64,000 bases of DNA. Origin: Jannaschia sp. CCS1. Lineage in GTDB: Bacteria > Pseudomonadota > Alphaproteobacteria > Rhodobacterales > Rhodobacteraceae. The position numbers were made by a program, and so were the translations under genes. The DNA lies in the NCBI RefSeq assembly GCF_000013565.1, contig NC_007802.1:3968001-4032000 (forward strand), in the 5' to 3' direction. The notes below the pieces were generated by a model, which saw only the letters and a list, made by a program, of their open reading frames with translations, ran no database searches and had not been told where the DNA came from. Below, one piece after another: positions 53,875 through 64,000 of this stretch (position 1 is the first letter of the stretch; each line of letters begins with the position of its first letter).

Positions 53875-54183
53875 TCAGACCTCCAGATCAACCACTAAGA
53901 TCCCGTCCGCGCCATTCCTGCAGGACGCGACCAACATGCCGCCTGCGCGCTGGTGGGTGGGGTGGACCGCATAGGCATCAAGCGCGGCTTTATCCGTGAA
54001 GGTGCACAGGAAGCCATAGGGATAGCGTTCGGACTTCTGCTCAAAATCGCGGTTGGGGCCGTGGCGGAACTCCGTGAGGCCGGGCAACTCGGGCGCGAGA
54101 CCGTCCAGGATCGCCATCGCCTCCATGATCCGGTCCATCGCGCCCTCGCCTTCAGGCTCCAACATCACCAAGTGATATAGCAT
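53875..54183 (-). CDS. Dabb-family stress-response A/B barrel protein
   Basis: A 102-residue small protein. The dimeric alpha/beta barrel pattern is clear: MLYHLVMLEPEGEG at the start, GLTEFRHGPNRDFEQKSERYPYGFLCTFTDKAALDAY in the middle, HPTHQR and the closing GILVVDLEV strand. Relatives have roles from stress response to polyketide cyclase or dye-decolourising functions. It lies 19 bases after the glycerate kinase gene and may be the last gene of the catabolic transcript. Confidence 0.88.
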   Translation of the reverse strand: MLYHLVMLEPEGEGAMDRIMEAMAILDGLAPELPGLTEFRHGPNRDFEQKSERYPYGFLCTFTDKAALDAYAVHPTHQRAGGMLVASCRNGADGILVVDLEV

Positions 54184-54202: not shown

Positions 54203-55426
54203 CTACGTGATCAAAATCGCGCGGAAATCGTTAACGTTTGTCAGCGTCGGACCGGTAACAACCTGATCGCCGATTGACGCGAAAAAGCTGTGGGCGTCGT
54301 TGGTGGCCAGCGCATGGTCGGGCGTCAGCGTTGTGGCTTTTGCCAGCGTATCGGGGCCGATGACCGCGCCCGCGACCTCTGCCGCGCCATCCACGCCGTC
54401 TGTATCACAGGCGATGGCGTGGATATTATCCTTGCCTTTCAGGGCGATGGCCAGTGCCAGGGCGTATTCGGCATTGGGCCCGCCGATACCGTTTCCACGG
54501 CGGGTCACAGTCAGTTCGCCACCTGAAAGAATGACCGTGCCGGGGGCCGCCTTCAACGCACGGGCGGCATGGTCCGCAGCCACCTCTCTGGCCTCTCCTT
54601 CAATGGAATCTCCCAGCATTTCAACCGTGTAGCCTTCCGCGCGCGCGCTCTCAGCCGCGGCCGCGAGCGACTGCGACGGGGCCGCGTAGATCACGTTGTC
54701 CGTCCGCGCGAGGCGCGGATCATCGGGCAAGACCGGATTGCCACCTTTTTCCAGGTAGTTCTGGATCGACGGCGCTGGGGTCACGCCCCATTTATCCAAT
54801 TCTTCCAATGTCCTAGCCGCGCTGCCCCCGTGGCCGACGGTCGGACCGCTGGCAATGTCGCCCGGGTCGTCGCCGGGCACGTCGGAGATCATAAGCGCCA
54901 ACATTCGCGCCGGGTAGGCGGCTGCCGCCAAACGCCCACCCTTGACGGCAGAAACCTCTTTCCGGATGCCGTTGATCGTGCCAATCGGCGCACCAGACGC
55001 CAGAAGACCCGCCGTAAGCTCTTGTTTCTCCTGCAAACTCACGCCATCGACCGGTGCGCATAACAGCGCCGACCCGCCGCCGGAGATCAGCGCGAGGACG
55101 AAATCCCCCTCCCCCACCGTGTCCAGCAGGGCCAGCAGCCGTTTGGTCGCCAAGACCCCCGCCCTGTCGGGCACGGGATGGGATGCTTCAACGATTTCAA
55201 TGCCCTGACAGGGGCGCCCGTAGCCATAGCGTGTGATCACCAGCCCCTCGCACGGGCCCCATTCAGCCTCCACCGCCTCTGCCATCCGCGCACTGGCCTT
55301 GCCCGCGCCGATGACCACCACGCGGCCCTCGGGCTTGGGCGGCAAGGCGCGTGCGAGCGATTGCATCGGGTCCGCCACGCGGACGGCGCAATCGAAGAGG
55401 CCCCGCAGAAAATCGTTTGGCGTCAT
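54203..55426 (-). CDS. Glycerate 2-kinase (MOFRL-domain)
   Basis: A 407-residue kinase of the DUF4147/MOFRL family, which makes 2-phosphoglycerate from glycerate. The N-terminal domain has VVVIGAGKASARMAEAVEAEWG at about residues 35-56 and ALISGGGSALL at about 113. The MOFRL end has ILSGGELTVTRRGNGIGGPNAEYALALAIAL at about 300-330. The ATG at 55426 overlaps the lacI stop (ATGA), so translation is coupled. Older annotations call this family hydroxypyruvate reductase TtuD. It links the locus to glycerate or tartronate metabolism. Confidence 0.88.
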   Translation of the reverse strand: MTPNDFLRGLFDCAVRVADPMQSLARALPPKPEGRVVVIGAGKASARMAEAVEAEWGPCEGLVITRYGYGRPCQGIEIVEASHPVPDRAGVLATKRLLALLDTVGEGDFVLALISGGGSALLCAPVDGVSLQEKQELTAGLLASGAPIGTINGIRKEVSAVKGGRLAAAAYPARMLALMISDVPGDDPGDIASGPTVGHGGSAARTLEELDKWGVTPAPSIQNYLEKGGNPVLPDDPRLARTDNVIYAAPSQSLAAAAESARAEGYTVEMLGDSIEGEAREVAADHAARALKAAPGTVILSGGELTVTRRGNGIGGPNAEYALALAIALKGKDNIHAIACDTDGVDGAAEVAGAVIGPDTLAKATTLTPDHALATNDAHSFFASIGDQVVTGPTLTNVNDFRAILIT

Positions 55427-56427
55427 GGGTTTCGTCCGGTGCTGGAGGTGCGGGCGACAAGGTGAACCGGGGCTCGATGCTCGGGCGGTGGGGTCACGCC
55501 GTCCTGCATCCAGGCCAACAATCCGTCGGCGATGCCCTGCGCAAAGCCCGAGATGTCGCACGCGACGGAGGAAACCTGCGGCCAGACCTGTGCGCAATCC
55601 TCAATATCGTCAAAGCCTACAAGGCGGAAATCCCGGCCCAGTTCCACCCCTTCCCGGGCAAAGCCGGACAGCATGCCCAAGGCGACCAAGTCGTTGAAAC
55701 ATATGGCCGCATCGACATCCATCGGCAGAGCCATTGCCGCCTCCAGCCCGAAGGCGCGGGAACTGCGGCCATGCAGCACAAAGGGCTCCGCACCCGCGCG
55801 CTTGATCTCTGCCAGGTAGCCGGACTTGCGTTCTTCGGTGATCGCGCGCCCCTCCATGCCGCCGACAAACGCGATGCGGGTCGCGCCCTGGTTCATCAGG
55901 TGCCGGGTGGCCTTGGCCGACCCCGATGCATAGTCGAAGGACGCGAACGGAAACAGGCCAGTCCGCGGGTCGGTTTTGCGCAGAACCTGCATGGCCGGAA
56001 TGCCCGCGCGCTCCACCTGATCAAAGGCGTCGCCACCGTCGTCATAGGCCGGGGACACGACCAGCGCGGACACGCCATGCTCGATCATCGAGCCCATCAA
56101 TTTTGCTTGCAAATCAGCATCTTCGTCAGAATTCGCAATGACCGTCGCATAGCCTTTGGCGGCCAAAGTCATCTGCAACACGGTCGCAAATTCGGTGAAG
56201 AACGGGTTGCGCAGGTCGTTGATCACCAGCCCCACCAACCCCGCCGATTGCGACCGCATCTGCGCCGCCGCACGGTTGTAGACGTAGCCGATATCCGCCA
56301 TTGCGGCGCGCACAGCCTCGCGGGTTTCCGCCTTCACCTGTTTGGAGTTCTGCAACACCAGCGACACGGTTGATTTCGACACGCCCGCGCGGGCTGCGAC
56401 GTCCAGAATGGTGGGGCGACGGGTCAT
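55423..56427 (-). CDS. LacI-family transcriptional repressor
   Basis: A 334-residue DNA-binding regulator. The helix-turn-helix lies at residues 5-24 (PTILDVAARAGVSKSTVSL), the hinge with YVYNRAAAQMRSQ follows, and the periplasmic-binding-like domain covers the rest (GLVGLVINDLRNPFF onward). Such repressors bind CG-centred palindromes and are released by a sugar. It lies within the sugar-catabolic cluster, 8 bases after the DUF993 gene, and a matching palindrome is found at 61395-61406. The start ATG at 56427 was chosen over a Met-Pro start two codons earlier. Confidence 0.92.
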   Translation of the reverse strand: MTRRPTILDVAARAGVSKSTVSLVLQNSKQVKAETREAVRAAMADIGYVYNRAAAQMRSQSAGLVGLVINDLRNPFFTEFATVLQMTLAAKGYATVIANSDEDADLQAKLMGSMIEHGVSALVVSPAYDDGGDAFDQVERAGIPAMQVLRKTDPRTGLFPFASFDYASGSAKATRHLMNQGATRIAFVGGMEGRAITEERKSGYLAEIKRAGAEPFVLHGRSSRAFGLEAAMALPMDVDAAICFNDLVALGMLSGFAREGVELGRDFRLVGFDDIEDCAQVWPQVSSVACDISGFAQGIADGLLAWMQDGVTPPPEHRAPVHLVARTSSTGRNP

Positions 56428-56435
56428 GGGCAACG

Positions 56436-57599
56436 CTAACCCTCGATCCCGTGAAGCGCCAGAAGGTTGCCCATTTTCCGCATGGCTTGGTCCGGGTCCG
56501 TCAGTAGCCGCGCTTGGTCGGCAAGGCGGAACACCTCCGCGAAGTGACTGATATCGCGGGAGGATTGGAACCCGCCCGGCATGATGAAATGCGACTGCGC
56601 GCCGTTGAGCCAGGCCAGAAACGCAATGCCCGCCTTGTAATATTGCGTGGGCGCTTTGAAGATCTCGCGGCTCAGCGGGACCGTCGGCGCGAGCAGCCCG
56701 TGATACGCACCGGCATCGCCCTGCGCCAGGGCCTCCAACGCCTGGGACGCGGCGGGGGCAATGGCCGCGAAGATCCCCAGAAGTGCGTGGGAGTAATGCG
56801 CGCCGTCGCCCTCAATCAAACTGGCGTAGTTGAAATCGTCGCCTGTGTAGAGGCGAACGCCATCGGGTAGGCGTTTACGGAACGCTTCCTCATGGGACTG
56901 ATCCAGAAGGGAAATCTTGATGCCGTCGATCTTGGGCGCGGTGCGCGCGATCAGATCGTGGACGACATCATTGGCCTGATCCACGTCGTCGCTGCCCCAA
57001 TAGCCCCGCAGGCCGGGATCAAACATGTCGCCCAACCAATGAAGGATCACGGGCGCTTCGGCCTGCGTGATGAGATCATCGTAGAGGCGGGCATAATCCT
57101 CCGGCCCCGCCCCAATTGCGGGCAGGGCGCGGGTGGCCATCAGGATCAGCCGCCCGCCGGCGGCCTCGATCGCGTCCATCTGGTGCATGTAGGCGTCGCG
57201 GATGCTGCCCAGGTTGGTTAACGCCTCCGCAGCCACGTGATCCGTGCCCGCGCCACAGGCCACGCGGGGACGGGCGGGATGCGCTTTCGCGGCAGCCATT
57301 GTCCGCTCAATCAACTCACGCGCGGTGGCCCAATCCACGCCCATGCCCCGCTGCGCGGTATCCATGGCCTCGGCAAGGTGAAGCCCCTGATCCCAAAGCC
57401 CCTCCCGAAACCTCAGCGTCGCCTCCCAATCCACGGCGGGGCGGCCTTGCCAGGGGTCCCGTTCGGCCAAAGGATCGCTGATCACATGGGCCGCGGCAAA
57501 GGCGGTACGGGTCAGCGGCACATAAGGTGCGCGCGGGGTCAAAGGCTCCCCAACTAGCGTGTAGTCTTCAAGCATCCCTGCGTAGGTGGGCAATTTCAT
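56436..57599 (-). CDS. DUF993 protein, DHDPS-like TIM barrel
   Basis: A 387-residue soluble protein resembling DUF993, a branch near the dihydrodipicolinate synthase/aldolase barrels. Visible blocks are PRVACGAGTDHVAAEALTNLGSIRDAYMHQ (about 112-142), APVILHWLGDMFDPGLRGYWGSDD (about 191-214), KIDGIKISLLDQSHEEAFRKRLP with a lysine at the right place for a Schiff-base aldolase, and GAQSHFIMPGGFQSSRD. Function is unknown. Its setting among oxidoreductases, a sugar importer and a glycerate kinase suggests it cleaves an oxidised sugar acid, which is inference. Confidence 0.82.
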   Translation of the reverse strand: MKLPTYAGMLEDYTLVGEPLTPRAPYVPLTRTAFAAAHVISDPLAERDPWQGRPAVDWEATLRFREGLWDQGLHLAEAMDTAQRGMGVDWATARELIERTMAAAKAHPARPRVACGAGTDHVAAEALTNLGSIRDAYMHQMDAIEAAGGRLILMATRALPAIGAGPEDYARLYDDLITQAEAPVILHWLGDMFDPGLRGYWGSDDVDQANDVVHDLIARTAPKIDGIKISLLDQSHEEAFRKRLPDGVRLYTGDDFNYASLIEGDGAHYSHALLGIFAAIAPAASQALEALAQGDAGAYHGLLAPTVPLSREIFKAPTQYYKAGIAFLAWLNGAQSHFIMPGGFQSSRDISHFAEVFRLADQARLLTDPDQAMRKMGNLLALHGIEG

Positions 57600-57602
57600 C
57601 GG

Positions 57603-59189
57603 TTAAATTCCCTGGTCTTCGCGGATCATATCGGCGGCTTTTTCACCGATCATGATCGTGGGCGCGTTGGTGTTGGAGGACACGACACGCGGCATGATGG
57701 AGGCATCGGCGACGCGGAGGCCATCTATTCCGTTGAATGTCAGGCGGGGCGTCACGACGGCGCTGTCGCCCGGTCCCATGGCGCAGGTCCCGGCACAATG
57801 GTGGGAGGTTTTGGAATGCTGGCAGATGAAGTTGAAGTAATCCTCATCGTTGCGGACGCCCTCGCCGGGCAGGTGCTCAACCTTGAGCATTTGGCTAAGC
57901 GCCTGTTGTGAAAGTATTTTCTGAGTCAGCTTTAATCCGCGAATGGACATCTCGCGGTCCAGCGGGTCGGCGCAATAATTGGGGTCGATCAACGGCGCGC
58001 GGGCCGGATCGGCGCTGGCCAGCCGGACGGTTCCACGCGAGCGGGGGCGCAGATAACACGAATTCAGCGTCACGCCGCCCTCGGGCATGGCGACAACGCC
58101 CGCCTCGATCCCCGTGCCCAGACCCAGATGGAATTGCAGGTCCGGCGAACGCGCGGCGGGGTCGGCGTACCAGAAGCCGCCGGTCTCAAACAGGCTGCTC
58201 GCCACCGGGCCTGTCTTCGTCAGCAAATATTGCAGCCCGGCCAGCACGCTCAGATGCGGCTTGGCGAAGCGGTCATAGGTGTGGGGGCCGGAGACCTCGG
58301 CGATGCAATACAGGTCCAGATGATCCTGCAAGTTGCTGCCCACTTGCGGCTGGTCCAGCACCACATCAATCCCAAGCTCGCGCAAGTGATCCGCCGGACC
58401 AATGCCGGACAGTTGCAATAGCCTCGGCGAACCGATGGCCCCGCTGGTCAGGATCACCTCGCGGCGCGCAGTGATGCGGGTGCCGTCCAGCATCTCCACA
58501 CCCACGGCACGGCCACCGTCCACCACGATGCGTCGCACATGGGCGCGCAGCTTCACATTCAGGTTCACGCGGTGCCTGTTGGGGTGCAGGAATGCCATCG
58601 CCGCCGACGACCGGCGGGCGTTCTTCTGGGTCAGCTGATAATAGGCCGCGCCCTCCTGCACCGCTCCGGTGACATCGTCGTTGAAGGGAATGCCGAGGGC
58701 CTTTGCGGCCTCAAAATACGCCTCACAAATCGGCAGGGGCGCGGCGGGTTTCGACACGCCCAAAGGGCCGTCCTGACCGTGATACCGCCCGCCAAAACTA
58801 TCGTTGCCCTCGGACTTGCGGAAGTAGGGCAACACGTCCTCATAACTCCAGCCGTCACAGCCCAACTGCCGCCATTCGTCGTAATCCAGCGGGTGCCCGC
58901 GCGTGTAGATCTGCGCGTTGATCGCTGACCCGCCGCCGATCACCTTGGCCTGCGTATAGGTGAAGACCTTGCCCTGCATGTGGACCTGCGGCACCGTGCT
59001 CCAGCCCCAGGACGCGATGCCCTTGGTCATCTTCGCAAAGCCCGCGGGCAGATGAAAAAACGGGTGGCGGTCCGACCTTCCGGCCTCCAGCACACAAACG
59101 GTCACATCGGGGTTTTCGGACAATCGCGCGGCGATGACGGACCCCGCCGAGCCGCCGCCGATGATGATGAAATCGTATGCCTCAGCCAT
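57603..59189 (-). CDS. GMC oxidoreductase, choline-dehydrogenase-like
   Basis: A 528-residue FAD enzyme of the glucose-methanol-choline family. The dinucleotide-binding motif is FIIIGGGSAGSVIAARL (about residues 6-22); the GMC signature 1 is VIGGGSAINAQIYTRGHPLDYDEW (about 81-105); the C-terminal catalytic pair lies in HHCAGTCAMG and SSNTNAPTIMIGEKAADMI. The overall match is to BetA-type alcohol dehydrogenases. No signal peptide is seen, so it acts in the cytoplasm or at the membrane. It starts 9 bases after the SDR and ends 3 bases before the DUF993 gene. Confidence 0.9.
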   Translation of the reverse strand: MAEAYDFIIIGGGSAGSVIAARLSENPDVTVCVLEAGRSDRHPFFHLPAGFAKMTKGIASWGWSTVPQVHMQGKVFTYTQAKVIGGGSAINAQIYTRGHPLDYDEWRQLGCDGWSYEDVLPYFRKSEGNDSFGGRYHGQDGPLGVSKPAAPLPICEAYFEAAKALGIPFNDDVTGAVQEGAAYYQLTQKNARRSSAAMAFLHPNRHRVNLNVKLRAHVRRIVVDGGRAVGVEMLDGTRITARREVILTSGAIGSPRLLQLSGIGPADHLRELGIDVVLDQPQVGSNLQDHLDLYCIAEVSGPHTYDRFAKPHLSVLAGLQYLLTKTGPVASSLFETGGFWYADPAARSPDLQFHLGLGTGIEAGVVAMPEGGVTLNSCYLRPRSRGTVRLASADPARAPLIDPNYCADPLDREMSIRGLKLTQKILSQQALSQMLKVEHLPGEGVRNDEDYFNFICQHSKTSHHCAGTCAMGPGDSAVVTPRLTFNGIDGLRVADASIMPRVVSSNTNAPTIMIGEKAADMIREDQGI

Positions 59190-59198
59190 GGGGATGCC

Positions 59199-59909
59199 TC
59201 AAAACGTCTGGATCGTCAGGCCGCCATCCACGGGGATCTGCGCCCCGGTGGCGAAGGCAAAATCCCCGCGCGCCAGCGGCACGACGACATCCGCGATGTC
59301 CCGCGGTGTGCCCCAGCGGCCAGCGGGGACGGTATCGGGGATCGTGGTGTCGTAGCGGTCGGCCACCGGCGCGGTCATCGGCGACTGGATGATGCCGGGG
59401 CGGATGTCGAAGACGCCGATGTTCTCGGGGGCAAGCCGTTCTGCGAAGGCCTTGGCCGCCATGGCCGTGGCTGTCTTCGAGATACAATATTCCACGCGAT
59501 TGGGGCTGAGGACGGCGGCATTGACGGAGGTGATGAAGGTGATGGAGCGGTAGGGATCACCGGGCATGTCCAGCATTCGCCGCGCCACCTGCTGCGCTAG
59601 AAACACCGCGCCGCGTGTGTTGACGGCAAGGCAGCGGTCAAAACTTTCGGGTGTCATATCAAGGACATCACCGCGCCTGATCGCACCGACGCCTGCGTTG
59701 GAGATCAGCGTGGTGATCGGTCCCGTGGCGTCGAGCAACGCGGGAATGGCCTCAATATCGCACACATCGTGCTGATGATATGTGGCCTCGAACGGTATGT
59801 CGGCAGTGGCCTGTTCAGACGCCACCGCAATCTCCCACCCCGCCGCGTGCAGCGCCTGCGCGATGCCAAGGCCGATGCCCTGTTGGCCGCCGGTGATAAG
59901 CGCTTTCAT
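59199..59909 (-). CDS. SDR-family oxidoreductase
   Basis: A 236-residue NAD(P)-dependent short-chain reductase. The cofactor motif is ALITGGQQGIGLGIAQAL at about residues 3-20. The Ser/Tyr/Lys triad is complete (FITSVNAAVLSPNRVEYCISKTATAM; Tyr and Lys in YCISK). The C-terminal DFAFATGAQIPVDGGLTIQ is usual for sugar- or polyol-oxidising SDRs. Its start overlaps the stop of the upstream GMC gene (ATGA), so it is coupled to it. The substrate is unknown but is likely an intermediate of the locus. Confidence 0.9.
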   Translation of the reverse strand: MKALITGGQQGIGLGIAQALHAAGWEIAVASEQATADIPFEATYHQHDVCDIEAIPALLDATGPITTLISNAGVGAIRRGDVLDMTPESFDRCLAVNTRGAVFLAQQVARRMLDMPGDPYRSITFITSVNAAVLSPNRVEYCISKTATAMAAKAFAERLAPENIGVFDIRPGIIQSPMTAPVADRYDTTIPDTVPAGRWGTPRDIADVVVPLARGDFAFATGAQIPVDGGLTIQTF

Positions 59910-61375
59910 GTGGTCTCCAATAGATGGTCTGCCTGGCGCAGGGCCAAAGCGGCGATGGTGAGCGAGGGGTTCACGGCAGCCGATGTCGGCAGCAGCGACG
60001 CGTCGCAGATAAACAGGTTCGGGTGGTCGTGGGTGCGCCCAAACGGGTCACACACTGACGTCGCGGGATTGTCTCCGACCCGCGCGGTGCCACATTGGTG
60101 GGACGGCGTGCGGCGATCGAACGCTTTGGACAGGACCACCGGGAAGCCCGCGCGTTTGAGCGTCGCCGTCAGCTTTGCCACCAGCGCCAGATGCGCGTCC
60201 CAGTTGGAGCGTTTCCAGTCCAACACGATGTCATCGCCCGTCACCGTCACGCGGCTGTCCGGGTCCGGCAAATCCTCGGACATGGCGTAGAAATCAATCG
60301 CCCGGCCCGCGATGGCTCTGGCTGCGACCATCGGCATCCCCGTTTGGGCCGCAAGGATGGGCGCAGAGACGCGGCCCAAAAGCTGCACATTGCCCAAAGG
60401 CGTGCCGTCCAGGCCGCCGGACAGATACCAATCGTTGATCTGGAGCGTCTTTTGATAGACGGAGCGGTTGCGCCGCGGGCTGAGCGCCAACACGGCGCTG
60501 GTGTTGTGGTTCATGAAGTTGCGCCCGACCTGATCGGAGCGGTTGGCCAGGCCGTTTGGATGCGCCTCATCCTTTGAGCGCAACAAAAGCGCCGCCGTAT
60601 GCACGGCCCCCGCCGCCAGGACGATCCGGGGTGCAGTCAGCCGCCCGGCGGAGGTCAGCAAACCGGTCACTTGGCCGCCTTCAACCTCGATCTTACGCAC
60701 CTCAACCCCGGTGCGCAGCGTCACATTCGGATGCGCCAACGCCTGCACCATTGCGGCGCTTTCGGCATCCAGCTTGCCGCCGTTTGTATCCGGGAAGGCG
60801 TCCCACGGGGTCTTGGCCCGGCTGAGCCACCGCTCCAGATCGACGGCCAGCGGCAGGGGCGACGGGGTCAGCCCGGCCCGTTTCAGGCGCAGGGCGAGGT
60901 CAATGATGTCCGGCTCGTGGGGGACAGGCGGGAAGGTGTAGTCGCCGCGAGGCGGTTCCGTCGGGTCCAGCGTGCCGTCGCCGCGCACCTGGTAGAGCGC
61001 TTCGGCGCGGGCGTAGAACGGCGCGAGGGTTGCGTAGTCGATGGGCCAGCCGGGGGTGGTGCCGCCGAGGTGGCGGATCGGGGCGAAGTCCGCTTCCCGG
61101 TAGCGGAGCATGACCGCACCGTAGAACTTGGAATTGCCGCCGACGCAGGCGTAATTGCCGGGGTTGAAGCGGGTGCCATCGGGGGTCAGCCAGGTCTCGT
61201 CCGGGCGAAAGTGGCCGTCTTTGAAGATCGCCTCCGGGTCGCGGGCTTCCGGGCAATCATGGAGCAGCTGCCCGCGTTCCAGAACGAGCACCCGCAGGCC
61301 CGAGGGCGCCAGCCCGGCGGCCAGTGTCGCGCCCCCCATCCCGGAGCCGACGATGATGATATCCGCGTCTGACAT
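59906..61375 (-). CDS. GMC oxidoreductase, second type in the locus
   Basis: A 489-residue FAD enzyme. The Rossmann motif is IIIVGSGMGGATLAAGLA at about residues 5-22; the GMC pattern includes NYACVGGNSKFYGAVMLRYREAD (about 70-93); and the C-terminal HQCGTARVGDNPATSVCDPFGRTHDHPNLFICDASLLPTSAAVNPSLTI carries the catalytic His/Asn. This shape resembles the large subunits of sugar/gluconate dehydrogenases, unlike the BetA-like paralogue downstream, so the two probably oxidise different substrates. It is the first gene after the LacI-like operator, on a promoter that would start in the 61376-61488 gap. Confidence 0.9.
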   Translation of the reverse strand: MSDADIIIVGSGMGGATLAAGLAPSGLRVLVLERGQLLHDCPEARDPEAIFKDGHFRPDETWLTPDGTRFNPGNYACVGGNSKFYGAVMLRYREADFAPIRHLGGTTPGWPIDYATLAPFYARAEALYQVRGDGTLDPTEPPRGDYTFPPVPHEPDIIDLALRLKRAGLTPSPLPLAVDLERWLSRAKTPWDAFPDTNGGKLDAESAAMVQALAHPNVTLRTGVEVRKIEVEGGQVTGLLTSAGRLTAPRIVLAAGAVHTAALLLRSKDEAHPNGLANRSDQVGRNFMNHNTSAVLALSPRRNRSVYQKTLQINDWYLSGGLDGTPLGNVQLLGRVSAPILAAQTGMPMVAARAIAGRAIDFYAMSEDLPDPDSRVTVTGDDIVLDWKRSNWDAHLALVAKLTATLKRAGFPVVLSKAFDRRTPSHQCGTARVGDNPATSVCDPFGRTHDHPNLFICDASLLPTSAAVNPSLTIAALALRQADHLLETT

Positions 61376-61394
61376 TGCCCGGCCTTGATACTTC

Positions 61395-61406
61395 TGGAAC
61401 GTTCCA
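61395..61406. promoter_or_regulatory. LacI-type operator candidate
   Basis: A perfect 12-bp palindrome, TGGAACGTTCCA, with the central CG typical of LacI-family sites. It lies about 20 bases upstream of the ATG of the first GMC gene, in the 113-base gap after the ABC ATPase gene. A LacI-family gene is encoded 5 kb downstream in the same cluster, which makes it the natural partner. The AT-rich TTAAAAGTGAAAA at 61414-61426 could be part of a promoter. Confidence 0.65.
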
Positions 61407-61488
61407 ATTCCAAGTTAAAAGTGAAAATCGGGGCCAAACCGTAAGACACGTGTAGTTACGGAAAAACTACAGGAAAACTACGGATAAA

Positions 61489-62604
61489 TTATGCGATCCG
61501 CGCCTCGGTTTTAGGGTCGAACAGAACCGCCTTGTCCATGTTCACCGCAAACTCGAACGGTTGACTGGCGTGGACATCGGCGTCCGCCCGCATCCGCGCA
61601 ATGCAGTCTTTTCCCGCGAGCGTGGTGCTGACAAACGTATCCGCACCAGCCGGTTCCGTGACGCTGACGGTGTTCGTCATCATCTGGATGTTGCGGGCGT
61701 TGCGGTCCGCGCCTTCCGGGTCCGTGATCGCCTCAGGACGGATGCCCAGCATCACGCGTTTGCCGATATAGTCGCCGTATGCCTCGGGCGCGTCTTCAAT
61801 CCGCAGATTGATATCCGCCCCTTCCGCACCAGAGAATTTTGCGTGAAGCGCGCCGTTCATCTCAACCAGTTCCGCATCCAGCACGTTCATCGCGGGCGAG
61901 CCCATGAAGGTCGCCACAAAGAGGTTGGCAGGGTCGTCGTAGATCTCTTTCGGGGTGCCGAGTTGCTGCACGTAGCCATCGTACATCACGGCAATGCGTG
62001 TGGATAAAGTCATCGCCTCGATCTGGTCGTGGGTGACGTAGACGATGGTGGTGCCCAGGTTCTGGTGCAGCTTCTTGATCTCGGTCCGCATGTCGACGCG
62101 CAGCTTGGCATCGAGGTTGGACAGCGGCTCATCAAACAGGAACACGTCCGGGTCCCGCACCAGCGCACGGCCCATAGCAACACGCTGACGTTGCCCGCCC
62201 GAGAGCTGGCCGGGCTTACGATCCAGCAGGTTTTCGATCTGCAACAGGCTTGCGACTTCGGACATGGCTTTGTCACGTTCGGGTTTCGGGGTGCCCTGCA
62301 TTTCCAAGCCAAAGGTGATGTTCTGGCCCACGGTCATGTTGGGGTAGAGCGCGTAGGACTGGAACACCATCGCGATGTTGCGCTTGGACGGCGTGACGTC
62401 GTTGACGACGCGGTCCTTGATGGCGATCTCTCCGCTGGAAATCCCCTCCAGCCCCGCGATCATATTGAGCAATGTGGATTTGCCGCAGCCGGACGGGCCG
62501 ACAAGCACAAGAAACTCCCCCTCCTGCACCTGAATGTCGACCTTATGCAGGACCTCCACCGCGCCGTAGGATTTGGTGACGTTGTTGATGTCTAGAAAAC
62601 CCAT
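61489..62604 (-). CDS. Sugar ABC transporter ATP-binding protein (MalK/UgpC type)
   Basis: A 371-residue nucleotide-binding subunit. Walker A is GPSGCGKST at residues 36-44, the Q-loop [12 protein letters not shown], the signature LSGGQRQR at about 134, Walker [17 protein letters not shown] at about 155, and the switch His in [13 protein letters not shown]. The C-terminal MalK-like regulatory domain (about 240-371) includes MLGIRPEAI and a closing [12 protein letters not shown]. It serves the two permeases encoded upstream. The solute-binding protein must be beyond the window. A 52-bp nested palindrome separates it from the upstream permease gene. Confidence 0.94.
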
Positions 62605-62630
62605 GGGTCAGCTCCTTTCAGTTCCGTTGC

Positions 62631-62682
62631 GCGCCCAGAGTTTTGCAAAACTCTGTACAAACTCTTGCAAGAGTTTGGGCGC
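62631..62682. repeat. Nested 52-bp palindrome between ABC permease and ATPase
   Basis: Two perfect 18-bp palindromes, AGAGTTTTGCAAAACTCT (62637-62654) and AAACTCTTGCAAGAGTTT (62659-62676), stand 4 bases apart and are flanked by GCGCCCA and TGGGCGC, so the whole block is nearly self-complementary. It lies 2 bases after the permease stop, within the transcript. A role as a mRNA stabiliser or partial terminator that sets the ATPase level is likely; a protein-binding site is also possible. Confidence 0.75.
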
Positions 62683-62684
62683 GG

Positions 62685-63566
62685 TCATCCTTTTACGCTG
62701 CCTGCCATCAGGCCACGGACGAAGTATCGACCAGCCACGATGTAGACGAGAAGTGTGGGGCCGGCGGCCATGATCGCCCCGGCGAAATGGACGTTGTAGG
62801 GGCGTTCACCCGTCGATGAATTCACCAGATTGTTCAGCGCCACGGTCATCGGCGCGGCATCCCCGGACGCAAACGACGCGCCGAACAGGAAGTCATTCCA
62901 GATGTTGGTGAACTGCCAGATGCAGCAGACCGCGATGATCGGCCCCGACGACGGCAACATGATCCGCCAGAAGATCTGGAAGAACCCCGCGCCGTCGATC
63001 TGGGCGGCGCGCACCAGCTCTGTCGGGAAGGCCGCATAGTAGTTGCGGAAATAGAGCGTGGAAAACCCGATACCGTAGACCACGTGGACCAGGATCAGCC
63101 CGTAGGTGGTGCCCGAGATATTCAGGATCCCCAGGATCCGCGCCATCGGGATCAGGACGATCTGGAACGGAATGAAGCAGGAGAACAACAGCAGGCCGAA
63201 GATCCAGGTCGCACCCCGGAAGTGCCATTTCGTCAGGACGTAGCCATTCAAAGCCCCCGCAATGGTCGAGATAGCGACCGCAGGCACCGCCATGGCGATG
63301 GAGTTGATGAAATAGGGGCGCAGGCCCGTCGGCTCCACCCCGATCTGGGCAGTGGACCAGGCAGACAGCCAGGGCTGGATCGTCCATTCGTTGGGCAGCG
63401 CGATCATGCCGCCTTCGGTGATTTCCGACAGCGGTTTCAGAGAGTTCACCACCATGATGAACAGCGGCAGCAGATAGAACAGCGCGAACAGCAGCAGGAC
63501 CAGATAAATCAGCGTCCGGGTCCAGTTCGACGAGCGGATGGCGGTGTCAGACGAGGCTATGGCCAT
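62685..63566 (-). CDS. Carbohydrate ABC transporter permease (MalG type)
   Basis: A 293-residue inner-membrane subunit with six membrane helices. The EAA loop that contacts the ATPase reads ELVRAAQIDGAGFFQIFWRIMLPSSGP at about residues 193-219. It begins with a long N-terminal cytoplasmic and first-helix part (TLIYLVLLLFALFYLLPLFIMVVNSLK), typical of the MalG side. Its ATG overlaps the stop of the partner permease (TAATG), so both are made in step. Confidence 0.94.
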   Translation of the reverse strand: MAIASSDTAIRSSNWTRTLIYLVLLLFALFYLLPLFIMVVNSLKPLSEITEGGMIALPNEWTIQPWLSAWSTAQIGVEPTGLRPYFINSIAMAVPAVAISTIAGALNGYVLTKWHFRGATWIFGLLLFSCFIPFQIVLIPMARILGILNISGTTYGLILVHVVYGIGFSTLYFRNYYAAFPTELVRAAQIDGAGFFQIFWRIMLPSSGPIIAVCCIWQFTNIWNDFLFGASFASGDAAPMTVALNNLVNSSTGERPYNVHFAGAIMAAGPTLLVYIVAGRYFVRGLMAGSVKG

Positions 63567-64000
63567 TACTTCTGCTCCCGCAATTCGGCGTAGAGATAGG
63601 GCACCATGATCGCGGCGATGGTCATCAGCATGATCACGGCGGAGGCCGCGCCGATCCCCATCTGGTTCCGCGTGAAAGTGTATTCATACATGAACAGCGC
63701 AGGCAGCCAGGTGGACGTGCCGGGGCCGCCATCGGTCATCGCGACCACAAGGTCGTAGGATTTAATCGCCAGGTGCGACAGGATCACGAAGGCGCTGAGG
63801 AACGCAGGCCGAAGCTGCGGCAGGATGATCCGGCGATACATCTGAAAGTTCGACGCACCGTCCATTTGTGCGGCCTTGAGGATTTCATTGTCGATCCCGC
63901 GCAGGCCCGCGAGGAACATCGCCATCACGAAGCCCGAGGATTGCCAGACCGCGGCGATGACGATGGTGTAGATCGCCATGTCGCTGTCCTTGATCCAGTC
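63566..64000 (-). CDS. Sugar ABC transporter permease (MalF type), C-terminal part
   Basis: A partial membrane subunit: about 144 residues from the C-terminal half are visible and the frame runs out of the window at base 64000. Its EAA loop reads EILKAAQMDGASNFQMYRRIILPQLRPA, and the last helix ends AAIMVPYLYAELREQK. It forms a heterodimer with the downstream permease. An internal Met at 63979 should not be taken as the start, since the family has about 150 more residues upstream. Confidence 0.92.
   Translation of the reverse strand, partial: DWIKDSDMAIYTIVIAAVWQSSGFVMAMFLAGLRGIDNEILKAAQMDGASNFQMYRRIILPQLRPAFLSAFVILSHLAIKSYDLVVAMTDGGPGTSTWLPALFMYEYTFTRNQMGIGAASAVIMLMTIAAIMVPYLYAELREQK

Follow-up and report, generated by a model that had tools for sequence, protein, structure and literature searches.

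A LacI-associated DUF993 locus of Jannaschia sp. CCS1 with a possible role in the catabolism of 1,5-anhydrohexoses

A 64 000-nucleotide stretch of the Jannaschia sp. CCS1 genome (NC_007802.1, positions 3968001-4032000; hereafter the window) ends in a minus-strand gene set that includes a protein of the DUF993 family (PF06187). We tentatively read this set as part of a catabolic locus under LacI control whose substrate is a 1,5-anhydrohexose of the 1,5-anhydro-D-fructose, anhydroglucitol and anhydromannitol class, i.e. a glucose-like sugar ring without an aldehyde. The reading is backed by homologies, a conserved gene set, operator motifs, co-occurrence across genomes, the fold of the DUF993 protein and an invariant lysine in it, from which we infer the substrate, the order of the reactions and every chemical step. 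Algae and fungi produce anhydrosugars from starch and glycogen, and the proposal, if true, would help to explain how these sugars are consumed.

Gene content of the locus

Gene families were named by Pfam and curated profile scans. As transcribed, the genes in the window encode two permeases, an ATPase, a first flavoenzyme of the GMC family (GMC2), an SDR, a second GMC enzyme (GMC1), the DUF993 protein, a LacI regulator, a glycerate 2-kinase and a Dabb protein. They are given below in ascending window coordinates.

53875..54183, minus strand: Dabb family protein (dimeric alpha/beta barrel); PF07876, 49 bits
54203..55426, minus strand: glycerate 2-kinase (DUF4147 and MOFRL); 253 and 112 bits, domains over cut-off
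55423..56433, minus strand: LacI-family regulator 1 (LacI-1), putative binder of TTGGAACGWTCCAA by profile and motif position
56436..57599, minus strand: DUF993 protein, DHDPS-fold, proposed Schiff-base lyase (K228); PF06187, 586 bits
57603..59189, minus strand: GMC1, choline-dehydrogenase-like flavoenzyme, proposed to oxidise a primary alcohol; profiles, HHCAG and NTNAPT motifs
59199..59909, minus strand: SDR dehydrogenase (PRK12745 type), proposed to make the ketone for DUF993; 301 bits, cut-off 250; YCISK
59906..61375, minus strand: GMC2, kin of FAD glucose/fructose dehydrogenases; 6a2u, E 1.3e-29
61394..61407, no strand: candidate operator of motif 1 (CTGGAACGTTCCAA) before GMC2; 1 mismatch to the motif from relatives
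61489..62604, minus strand: ABC importer ATPase (UgpC/MalK type); 460 bits, cut-off 432
62685..63566, minus strand: ABC importer permease 2; PF00528
63566..64000, minus strand: ABC importer permease 1, cut by the window end, gene extends to 64489; Pfam

All minus-strand genes named in a first-pass annotation of the window were recovered in the families given there. The tight packing that it described holds from GMC2 to the kinase, where neighbours either overlap by 4 bases (GMC2/SDR and LacI/kinase) or lie 9 (SDR/GMC1), 3 (GMC1/DUF993) and 2 bases (DUF993/LacI) apart, but wider gaps of 113 bases between ATPase and GMC2, containing the candidate LacI-type operator, and of 80 bases between ATPase and permease mean that the set is not one uninterrupted run. 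The likely start codon of the kinase is the ATG at 55426, and this protein scores below both glycerate 2-kinase equivalog cut-offs despite carrying both domains. The expected active-site motifs were found in GMC1, GMC2 and the SDR. Neither a glycosidase nor a classical aldonate dehydratase was found among the scanned locus genes, and a PADLOC scan gave no match; a scan for promoters and terminators was put aside as near chance (5 vs 2.2 expected and 8 vs 7.1). The Dabb gene sits 19 bases downstream of the kinase gene and is part of the set in relatives; this barrel protein keeps turning up in such loci with no evident role.

While the genes listed by the first-pass annotation are present, half of the locus lies outside the window and adds CoA chemistry together with a protein homologous to 1,5-anhydro-D-fructose reductase (AFR). 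Past the window edge the locus runs on for about 8 kb. This part holds the remainder of permease 1, a sugar-binding protein (SBP), a divergent second LacI gene (LacI-2) and further enzymes, which on the minus strand and counted from the promoter are the AFR homologue, a CoA-transferase, a crotonase (closest among solved structures to a 3-hydroxypropionyl-CoA dehydratase) and an aldehyde dehydrogenase. Directly upstream of the AFR homologue lies a second CUT1-type sugar ABC importer (L142:4042-9081, outside the window; named by eye from open reading frames), one permease frame of which has 478 residues and is long for its kind.

Conservation and co-occurrence

Neighbourhoods were compared in 25 close relatives (DUF993 at least 65% identical to that of the window). 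DUF993 was accompanied by GMC1 in 23 of these, LacI in 22, the ATPase in 21, the SBP in 20, GMC2 in 18, the SDR in 17 and Dabb in 16, repeated neighbours which argue that the gene set is not a product of chance and bear out the earlier claim that the genes belong together. The counts refer to flanks of up to 10 kb (12-14 kb for plasmid records) and to open reading frames of our choosing, and a gene scored absent may lie farther off; GMC2 is beyond or at the flank edge in R. daejeonense, Microvirga and S. meliloti. A 3-hydroxypropionate/acryloyl-CoA role of the CoA genes, raised by the crotonase match and by AcrC-like acyl-CoA dehydrogenases in another class of DUF993 loci, was rejected, such a dehydrogenase being near DUF993 in 0 of the 25 close relatives.

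Peteryoungia has almost identical gene content in almost identical order. The set is complete and rearranged in R. daejeonense, with DUF993 set apart and divergent, while S. meliloti and Microvirga hold all enzymes and the importer, again rearranged (the annotation of neither stretch shows a second LacI, and that of S. meliloti shows no Dabb gene). As the set survives rearrangement at a DUF993 identity to the window protein of 54% (R. daejeonense) to 56% (Microvirga), the locus genes very probably form one conserved functional unit. The S. meliloti Ak57 record CP090106.1, labelled pSymB and 3.7 Mb in size, holds leuB together with the full locus, both of which would presumably be expected on the chromosome of this species, and its label or assembly may be odd.

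Co-occurrence was scored in a sample of 120 genomes of Rhodobacteraceae at set cut-offs per family. DUF993 was present in 27, GMC2 in 22, GMC1 in 32 and AFR in 12 genomes, and in a phylum sample DUF993 was found in 36 of 398. Every GMC2 genome also had GMC1 (22/22), and the DUF993 genomes shared GMC1 in 20/27 cases (p 2.8e-9) and GMC2 in 10/27 (p 0.009). AFR was confined to GMC2 genomes (12/12, p 6e-11; 11/11, p 3e-10 with the Jannaschia genome removed) and present in 9/10 genomes having both GMC2 and DUF993, Jannaschia included.

Evidence on the substrate

The AFR homologue matched 4koa (1.7e-114) and 2glx (1.2e-109), both with the molecule name 1,5-anhydro-D-fructose reductase, and the next other family followed at 5.8e-23; the two AFR structures thus lead all other solved proteins by a wide margin, and the homologue may catalyse the NADPH-dependent reduction of anhydrofructose. 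In 2006, Kuehn and colleagues reportedly found AFR in Sinorhizobium grown on anhydrofructose, with a later route to mannose. For the SBP of Jannaschia the first match was 4r2b (7e-165), an entry titled as Oant_3817 'with bound glucose'. It is also the best solved match, at 61% identity, to the model of an SBP from a relative (L032), followed there by glucose and galactose binders. Because the nearest solved relative is titled 'with bound glucose', a polyol, which the first-pass annotation had considered, is a less likely substrate than a glucose-like ring sugar. A glucose-type SBP, an AFR homologue and no glycosidase together point to a glucose-like monosaccharide that AFR can handle, and we favour 1,5-anhydro-D-fructose, or the anhydroglucitol or anhydromannitol interconverting with it, osones being the main alternative. 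The anhydrosugar proposal first arises in this analysis, and no priority is claimed for it as the literature search did not cover anhydrofructose terms.

AFR also reduces 2-keto aldoses, which counts against an anhydrosugar in that another sugar may be the substrate. This could be a 2-keto aldose (osone), on which AFR acts, or a 3-keto glucose-type sugar, with the AFR homologue as an osone reductase and DUF993 as a retro-aldolase of the dihydroxyacetone type acting on a ketone far from the carboxylate; a 5-ketoaldonate, for example, would give dihydroxyacetone and tartronate semialdehyde, then glycerate. The loss of a carboxylate motif in DUF993 (see below) fits a ketone without a neighbouring acid, and glycerate kinase commonly comes after tartronate semialdehyde, yet the CoA-transferase and the crotonase would be left unexplained and we consider this substrate unlikely.

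The DUF993 protein

PF06187 matches the DUF993 protein over its full length (residues 1-385, 586 bits, cut-off 24). Its AlphaFold model (pLDDT 93.6) retrieved 4dnh (SMc04132, 56% identity) first in Foldseek, followed by enzymes of the DHDPS/N-acetylneuraminate lyase (NAL) group (E 2e-9 to 1.3e-7, TMt 0.64-0.83 among the matches listed). Lysine K228 lies in model strand 224-230, i.e. barrel strand 6, at the place of the Schiff-base lysine of DHDPS/NAL, and is invariant in alignments of 19 and 36 sequences (overlapping sets, the larger consisting of the window protein and 35 of 80 loci, with L087 left out owing to a stop in the stretch used). Also invariant are H187-W188-L189-G190, D80-T81, Q83-R84-G85, D254-D255 and N257-Y258.

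The first-pass annotation had suggested that DUF993 acts as an aldolase. This idea is supported in part: a class I fold and an invariant lysine speak for it, but two 2-keto-acid-binding features of DHDPS were not seen, which also weighs against our own reading. By our reading of the model strand order, the place of the GTTGE carboxylate motif after strand 2 (74-77) reads MDTAQR, and strand 5 (184-189, VILHWL) has no tyrosine and carries H187 instead; the lack of both features speaks against a plain 2-keto-acid aldolase. Nor are the sequence profiles linked, hhalign giving DUF993 against DHDPS a probability of 0.3%. At that probability the alignment sets K228 opposite the DHDPS lysine, misses the GTTGE region and puts the DHDPS tyrosine opposite D191 in a gapped stretch; it is the fold match, and not a sequence match, that carries the claim. 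Pfam scans of DUF993 gave only PF06187 and no match to PF00701 (DHDPS), a genome-wide search for which led to five other places, and the protein is longer (387 residues vs about 295 in DHDPS/NAL). By its modelled fold and its lysine, DUF993 resembles a class I lyase, and we do not assign it to the DHDPS family.

The same fold could also serve a dehydratase, an isomerase or a C-C hydrolase, a role for DUF993 that we hold to be somewhat unlikely. The DHDPS superfamily in general includes dehydratases as well as aldolases, and in Route III pathways, as described in PMC6336799, an SDR step is followed by hydrolytic cleavage of the diketo acid. Against this role, the hydrolase described there belongs to the FAH family.

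Proposed pathway

In the route that we propose for a 1,5-anhydrohexose, the sugar would be imported by the ABC system via its glucose-type binding protein, after which GMC2 would oxidise a ring hydroxyl and the AFR homologue reduce the 2-ketone, leaving C2 epimerised. GMC1 and the aldehyde dehydrogenase would oxidise C6 to an acid, making C5 the alpha carbon and C4 the bearer of a beta hydroxyl. The CoA-transferase would form a thioester and the crotonase take off the C4 hydroxyl, creating a double bond between C4 and C5, the latter still bearing the ring oxygen; hydration of this enol ether would open the ring and place a C5 ketone next to the acid, which is a 2-keto-3-deoxyhexonate read from the other end. 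The SDR would oxidise this intermediate, and DUF993, forming a Schiff base through K228, would cleave it to C3 units. One of them would be channelled to glycerate and phosphorylated by the glycerate 2-kinase. This scheme of a C6 acid and a CoA-dependent elimination, which we infer on chemical grounds, would account for GMC1, the aldehyde dehydrogenase, the CoA-transferase and the crotonase, as well as for the cleavage and glycerate-kinase genes of the locus and the kinase of the 2-keto-3-deoxygluconate (KDG) type in some sister loci.

The sister loci come from 9 of the 12 GMC2 genomes without DUF993 (L149-L157). The aldehyde dehydrogenase, GMC2, GMC1, Dabb and LacI occur together in 8/9, while an SDR of the locus family was labelled in none of the nine. 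Beside LacI we noted by eye a flavoprotein of about 695 residues (7/9), a second Gfo/Idh protein (at least 5/9) and a PfkB kinase (4/9). On scanning, two of the flavoproteins were SdhA/NadB-like, one second Gfo/Idh was levoglucosan-dehydrogenase-like, below cut-off, and two PfkB kinases had 2-dehydro-3-deoxygluconokinase as their best model. The exchange of SDR and DUF993 for a kinase and a flavoprotein is suggestive, and only that, of a branch-point intermediate at the level of 2-keto-3-deoxyhexonate. The recurrence of this large SdhA/NadB-like flavoprotein (L149-L153, L155 and L156) in sugar loci without SDR and DUF993 is an observation in its own right.

Another route, of the non-phosphorylative Entner-Doudoroff type, would lead from an aldohexose via the aldonate to KDG, which DUF993 as a simple class I KDG aldolase would split into pyruvate and glyceraldehyde, with the aldehyde dehydrogenase and the kinase recovering the rest. 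It draws on the fold and lysine of DUF993, the glucose-type binding protein, the presence of both recovery enzymes in the locus and the KDG-kinase-like gene of 4/9 sister loci. Against these stand AFR, the two GMC enzymes, the SDR and the CoA genes, all left unexplained, and the carboxylate motif that was not seen; furthermore, the aldehyde dehydrogenase also occurs in 8/9 sister loci without DUF993 and so is not specific to that branch. We give this route a low probability.

The anhydrohexose route meets further difficulties of its own. At the cut-off used, 10/22 GMC2 genomes have no AFR, and 12/22 have no DUF993. The KDG-type kinase occurs in only 4/9 sister loci, and the two that were scanned scored 261 and 230 against a curated cut-off of 400. 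Recovery of glycerate by the kinase, put forward in the first-pass annotation, agrees with the glycerate 2-kinase domains of the protein, yet the kinase is near DUF993 in just 11/25 close relatives. Finally, if the SDR makes a 2,4-diketone, the cleavage would be a hydrolysis and not a retro-aldol reaction.

DUF993 in other gene contexts

We classed 90 DUF993 loci by their neighbours and compared the classes with a quick tree of DUF993, which they track (five labels need 12 changes, vs 45.5 in shuffles). One class combines a Gfo/Idh protein with an isomerase and with transporters of the Tct or another type, and many of its loci add an enolase-superfamily protein (MR_MLE_C). Another class has a CoA-transferase, an SDR, an isomerase and an acyl-CoA dehydrogenase, joined in some loci by ETF genes. 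CoA-transferases were 38-65% identical to that of Peteryoungia and GMC1 of another class 51-52% identical to that of the window. No locus holds both the Gfo/Idh family of the first class (38 of 90 loci) and the SDR (24 of 90), and none combines enolase-like genes (28 of 90) with CoA genes (28 of 90). The second exclusion is what one would predict if each of the two serves to eliminate a hydroxyl adjacent to an acid. Two findings reduce the support that this lends to our reading: the classes are clades seen through limited flanks, so that the exclusions are not independent events, and other lineages carry DUF993 without CoA genes within the flanks seen.

Taken to its full extent, the proposal would amount to a new way of breaking down sugars whose ring cannot open (C6 oxidation, CoA activation, crotonase elimination at C4 and hydration), with DUF993 as a new class of Schiff-base lyase that has a rebuilt active site and acts after an SDR, and with the crotonase/CoA pair and the enolase-superfamily protein interchangeable for the elimination in different bacteria. 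We regard this wider claim as doubtful. The structure of one DUF993 protein has been solved (4dnh), and 27/120 sampled family genomes carry such a protein; linking DUF993 to a defined sugar would assign it a function. Searching the open-licence literature for the name DUF993 returned no paper, which is weak evidence of absence.

A cluster with a DUF993 gene on plasmid pAO1 of Arthrobacter nicotinovorans (sugar ABC importer, GMC, aldehyde dehydrogenase, Gfo/Idh, DUF993 and glycerate kinase) suggests a pentose as substrate, since Mihasan and colleagues reportedly described in 2013 an oxidative D-xylose pathway on this plasmid. The resemblance in gene families is offset by the proteins themselves. 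The pAO1 Gfo/Idh is 57-59% identical to a DUF993 partner of another class, which is near DUF993 in 0/25 close relatives and was not seen in the Jannaschia locus, the pAO1 GMC is only 28% identical to GMC2, and the binding protein of Jannaschia is of the glucose type. A pentose pathway is, in our view, very unlikely here.

Some DUF993 loci were unusual in themselves. In Raoultella planticola and Dryocola boscaweniae (L093/L106), DUF993 lies beside an acyl-CoA dehydrogenase, an aldehyde dehydrogenase, a GMC enzyme, an isomerase and three proteins resembling ETF subunits or ETF-quinone oxidoreductase (by eye), i.e. a sugar-type locus with electron transfer in the style of fatty-acid oxidation. 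Divergent enolase-superfamily proteins (L125:11335-12732 and L127:9408-10841, the latter with a modest Pfam match, MR_MLE_C 45 bits) are tied to loci with DUF993, Gfo/Idh and a Tct transporter. The DUF993 protein of Frankia sp. RB7 (L068) falls inside a Bradyrhizobium clade on a very short branch and is likely mislabelled or a contaminant.

Regulation

Palindromes near the locus genes of relatives sort into two motifs: motif 1, TTGGAACGWTCCAA, found by LacI-1, DUF993, AFR and GMC2, and motif 2, ATTTAWAACGTTWTAAAT, located between the SBP and LacI-2. In the Jannaschia genome, motif 1 at up to 1 mismatch occurs in 4 places. Three belong to the locus, where one precedes GMC2 and a pair immediately precedes AFR, and the fourth falls within a gene unrelated to it. 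An extra regulon member at position 1404366 of NC_007802.1 was dropped because its site is internal to a gene that by eye resembles fumarylacetoacetase. When 2 mismatches are allowed, the genome shows no enrichment of motif 1 (41 matches vs 44 for the reversed control), so that its weight lies in position and in the 1-mismatch sites. Motif 2 at up to 3 mismatches has a single place, before the SBP.

Across 43 loci (that of Jannaschia included), from which the motifs were themselves read so that the counts are not independent, motif 1 stands before DUF993 in 14/43 and before LacI in 16/37, and before a minority of GMC2 (3/19), AFR/Gfo28 (3/12), CoA-transferase (2/23) and SBP genes (1/35), with 0 in each case for the reversed control. 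At up to 4 mismatches, motif 2 precedes the SBP in 14/35 (control 0), and also DUF993 in 9/43 and LacI in 6/37 (control 1 each). With motif 1 before both enzyme units and motif 2 before the SBP, the two enzyme units probably share one LacI regulator while the importer probably has its own.

Comparison with known systems

The oxidative deoxyribonate pathway of Klebsiella michiganensis runs via acyl-CoA intermediates (PMC6365646). Like the route proposed here, it has a sugar acid as CoA ester, a hydroxyacyl-CoA dehydrogenase, a CoA-transferase and a glycerate kinase in the account given there, but it uses a CoA-synthetase and a thiolase, and the terms 'DUF' and 'dihydrodipicolinate' occur 0 times in the main text. 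As an exact match it was rejected and kept as an analogy only, the cluster described in that paper including the thiolase and naming no DUF993-type protein. In the Route III pentose pathway of Herbaspirillum huttiense (PMC6336799), as presented there, an SDR likewise oxidises a 2-keto-3-deoxy acid ahead of C-C cleavage, which is carried out by an FAH-type hydrolase instead of DUF993, and section 10 of that paper names no CoA step.

SMc04132 (PDB 4dnh), an uncharacterised DUF993 protein of S. meliloti, shares the fold of the window protein at 56% identity. The isomerase of other DUF993 loci has a solved homologue in SMc04130, and SMc04133 carries the label of a putative oxidoreductase, so that SMc04132 probably belongs to another context class. 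In the data of PMC12542648 that concern them, SMc04132 and SMc04390-04392 have negative log2 changes in a regulator mutant, with no substrate given; PMC9608346 concerns an unrelated cluster and was set aside.

With the DHDPS/N-acetylneuraminate lyase superfamily, DUF993 shares the TIM-barrel fold and the lysine position and differs in the carboxylate motif and the strand-5 tyrosine, neither of which was seen in it. As for the AFR system of Sinorhizobium, the published route reportedly ends with the conversion of anhydromannitol to mannose, whereas the GMC, CoA and DUF993 steps belong only to the proposal made here; the two are alike in that the Jannaschia locus has an AFR homologue and that S. 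meliloti Ak57 has an annotated 1,5-anhydro-D-fructose reductase inside the same gene set.

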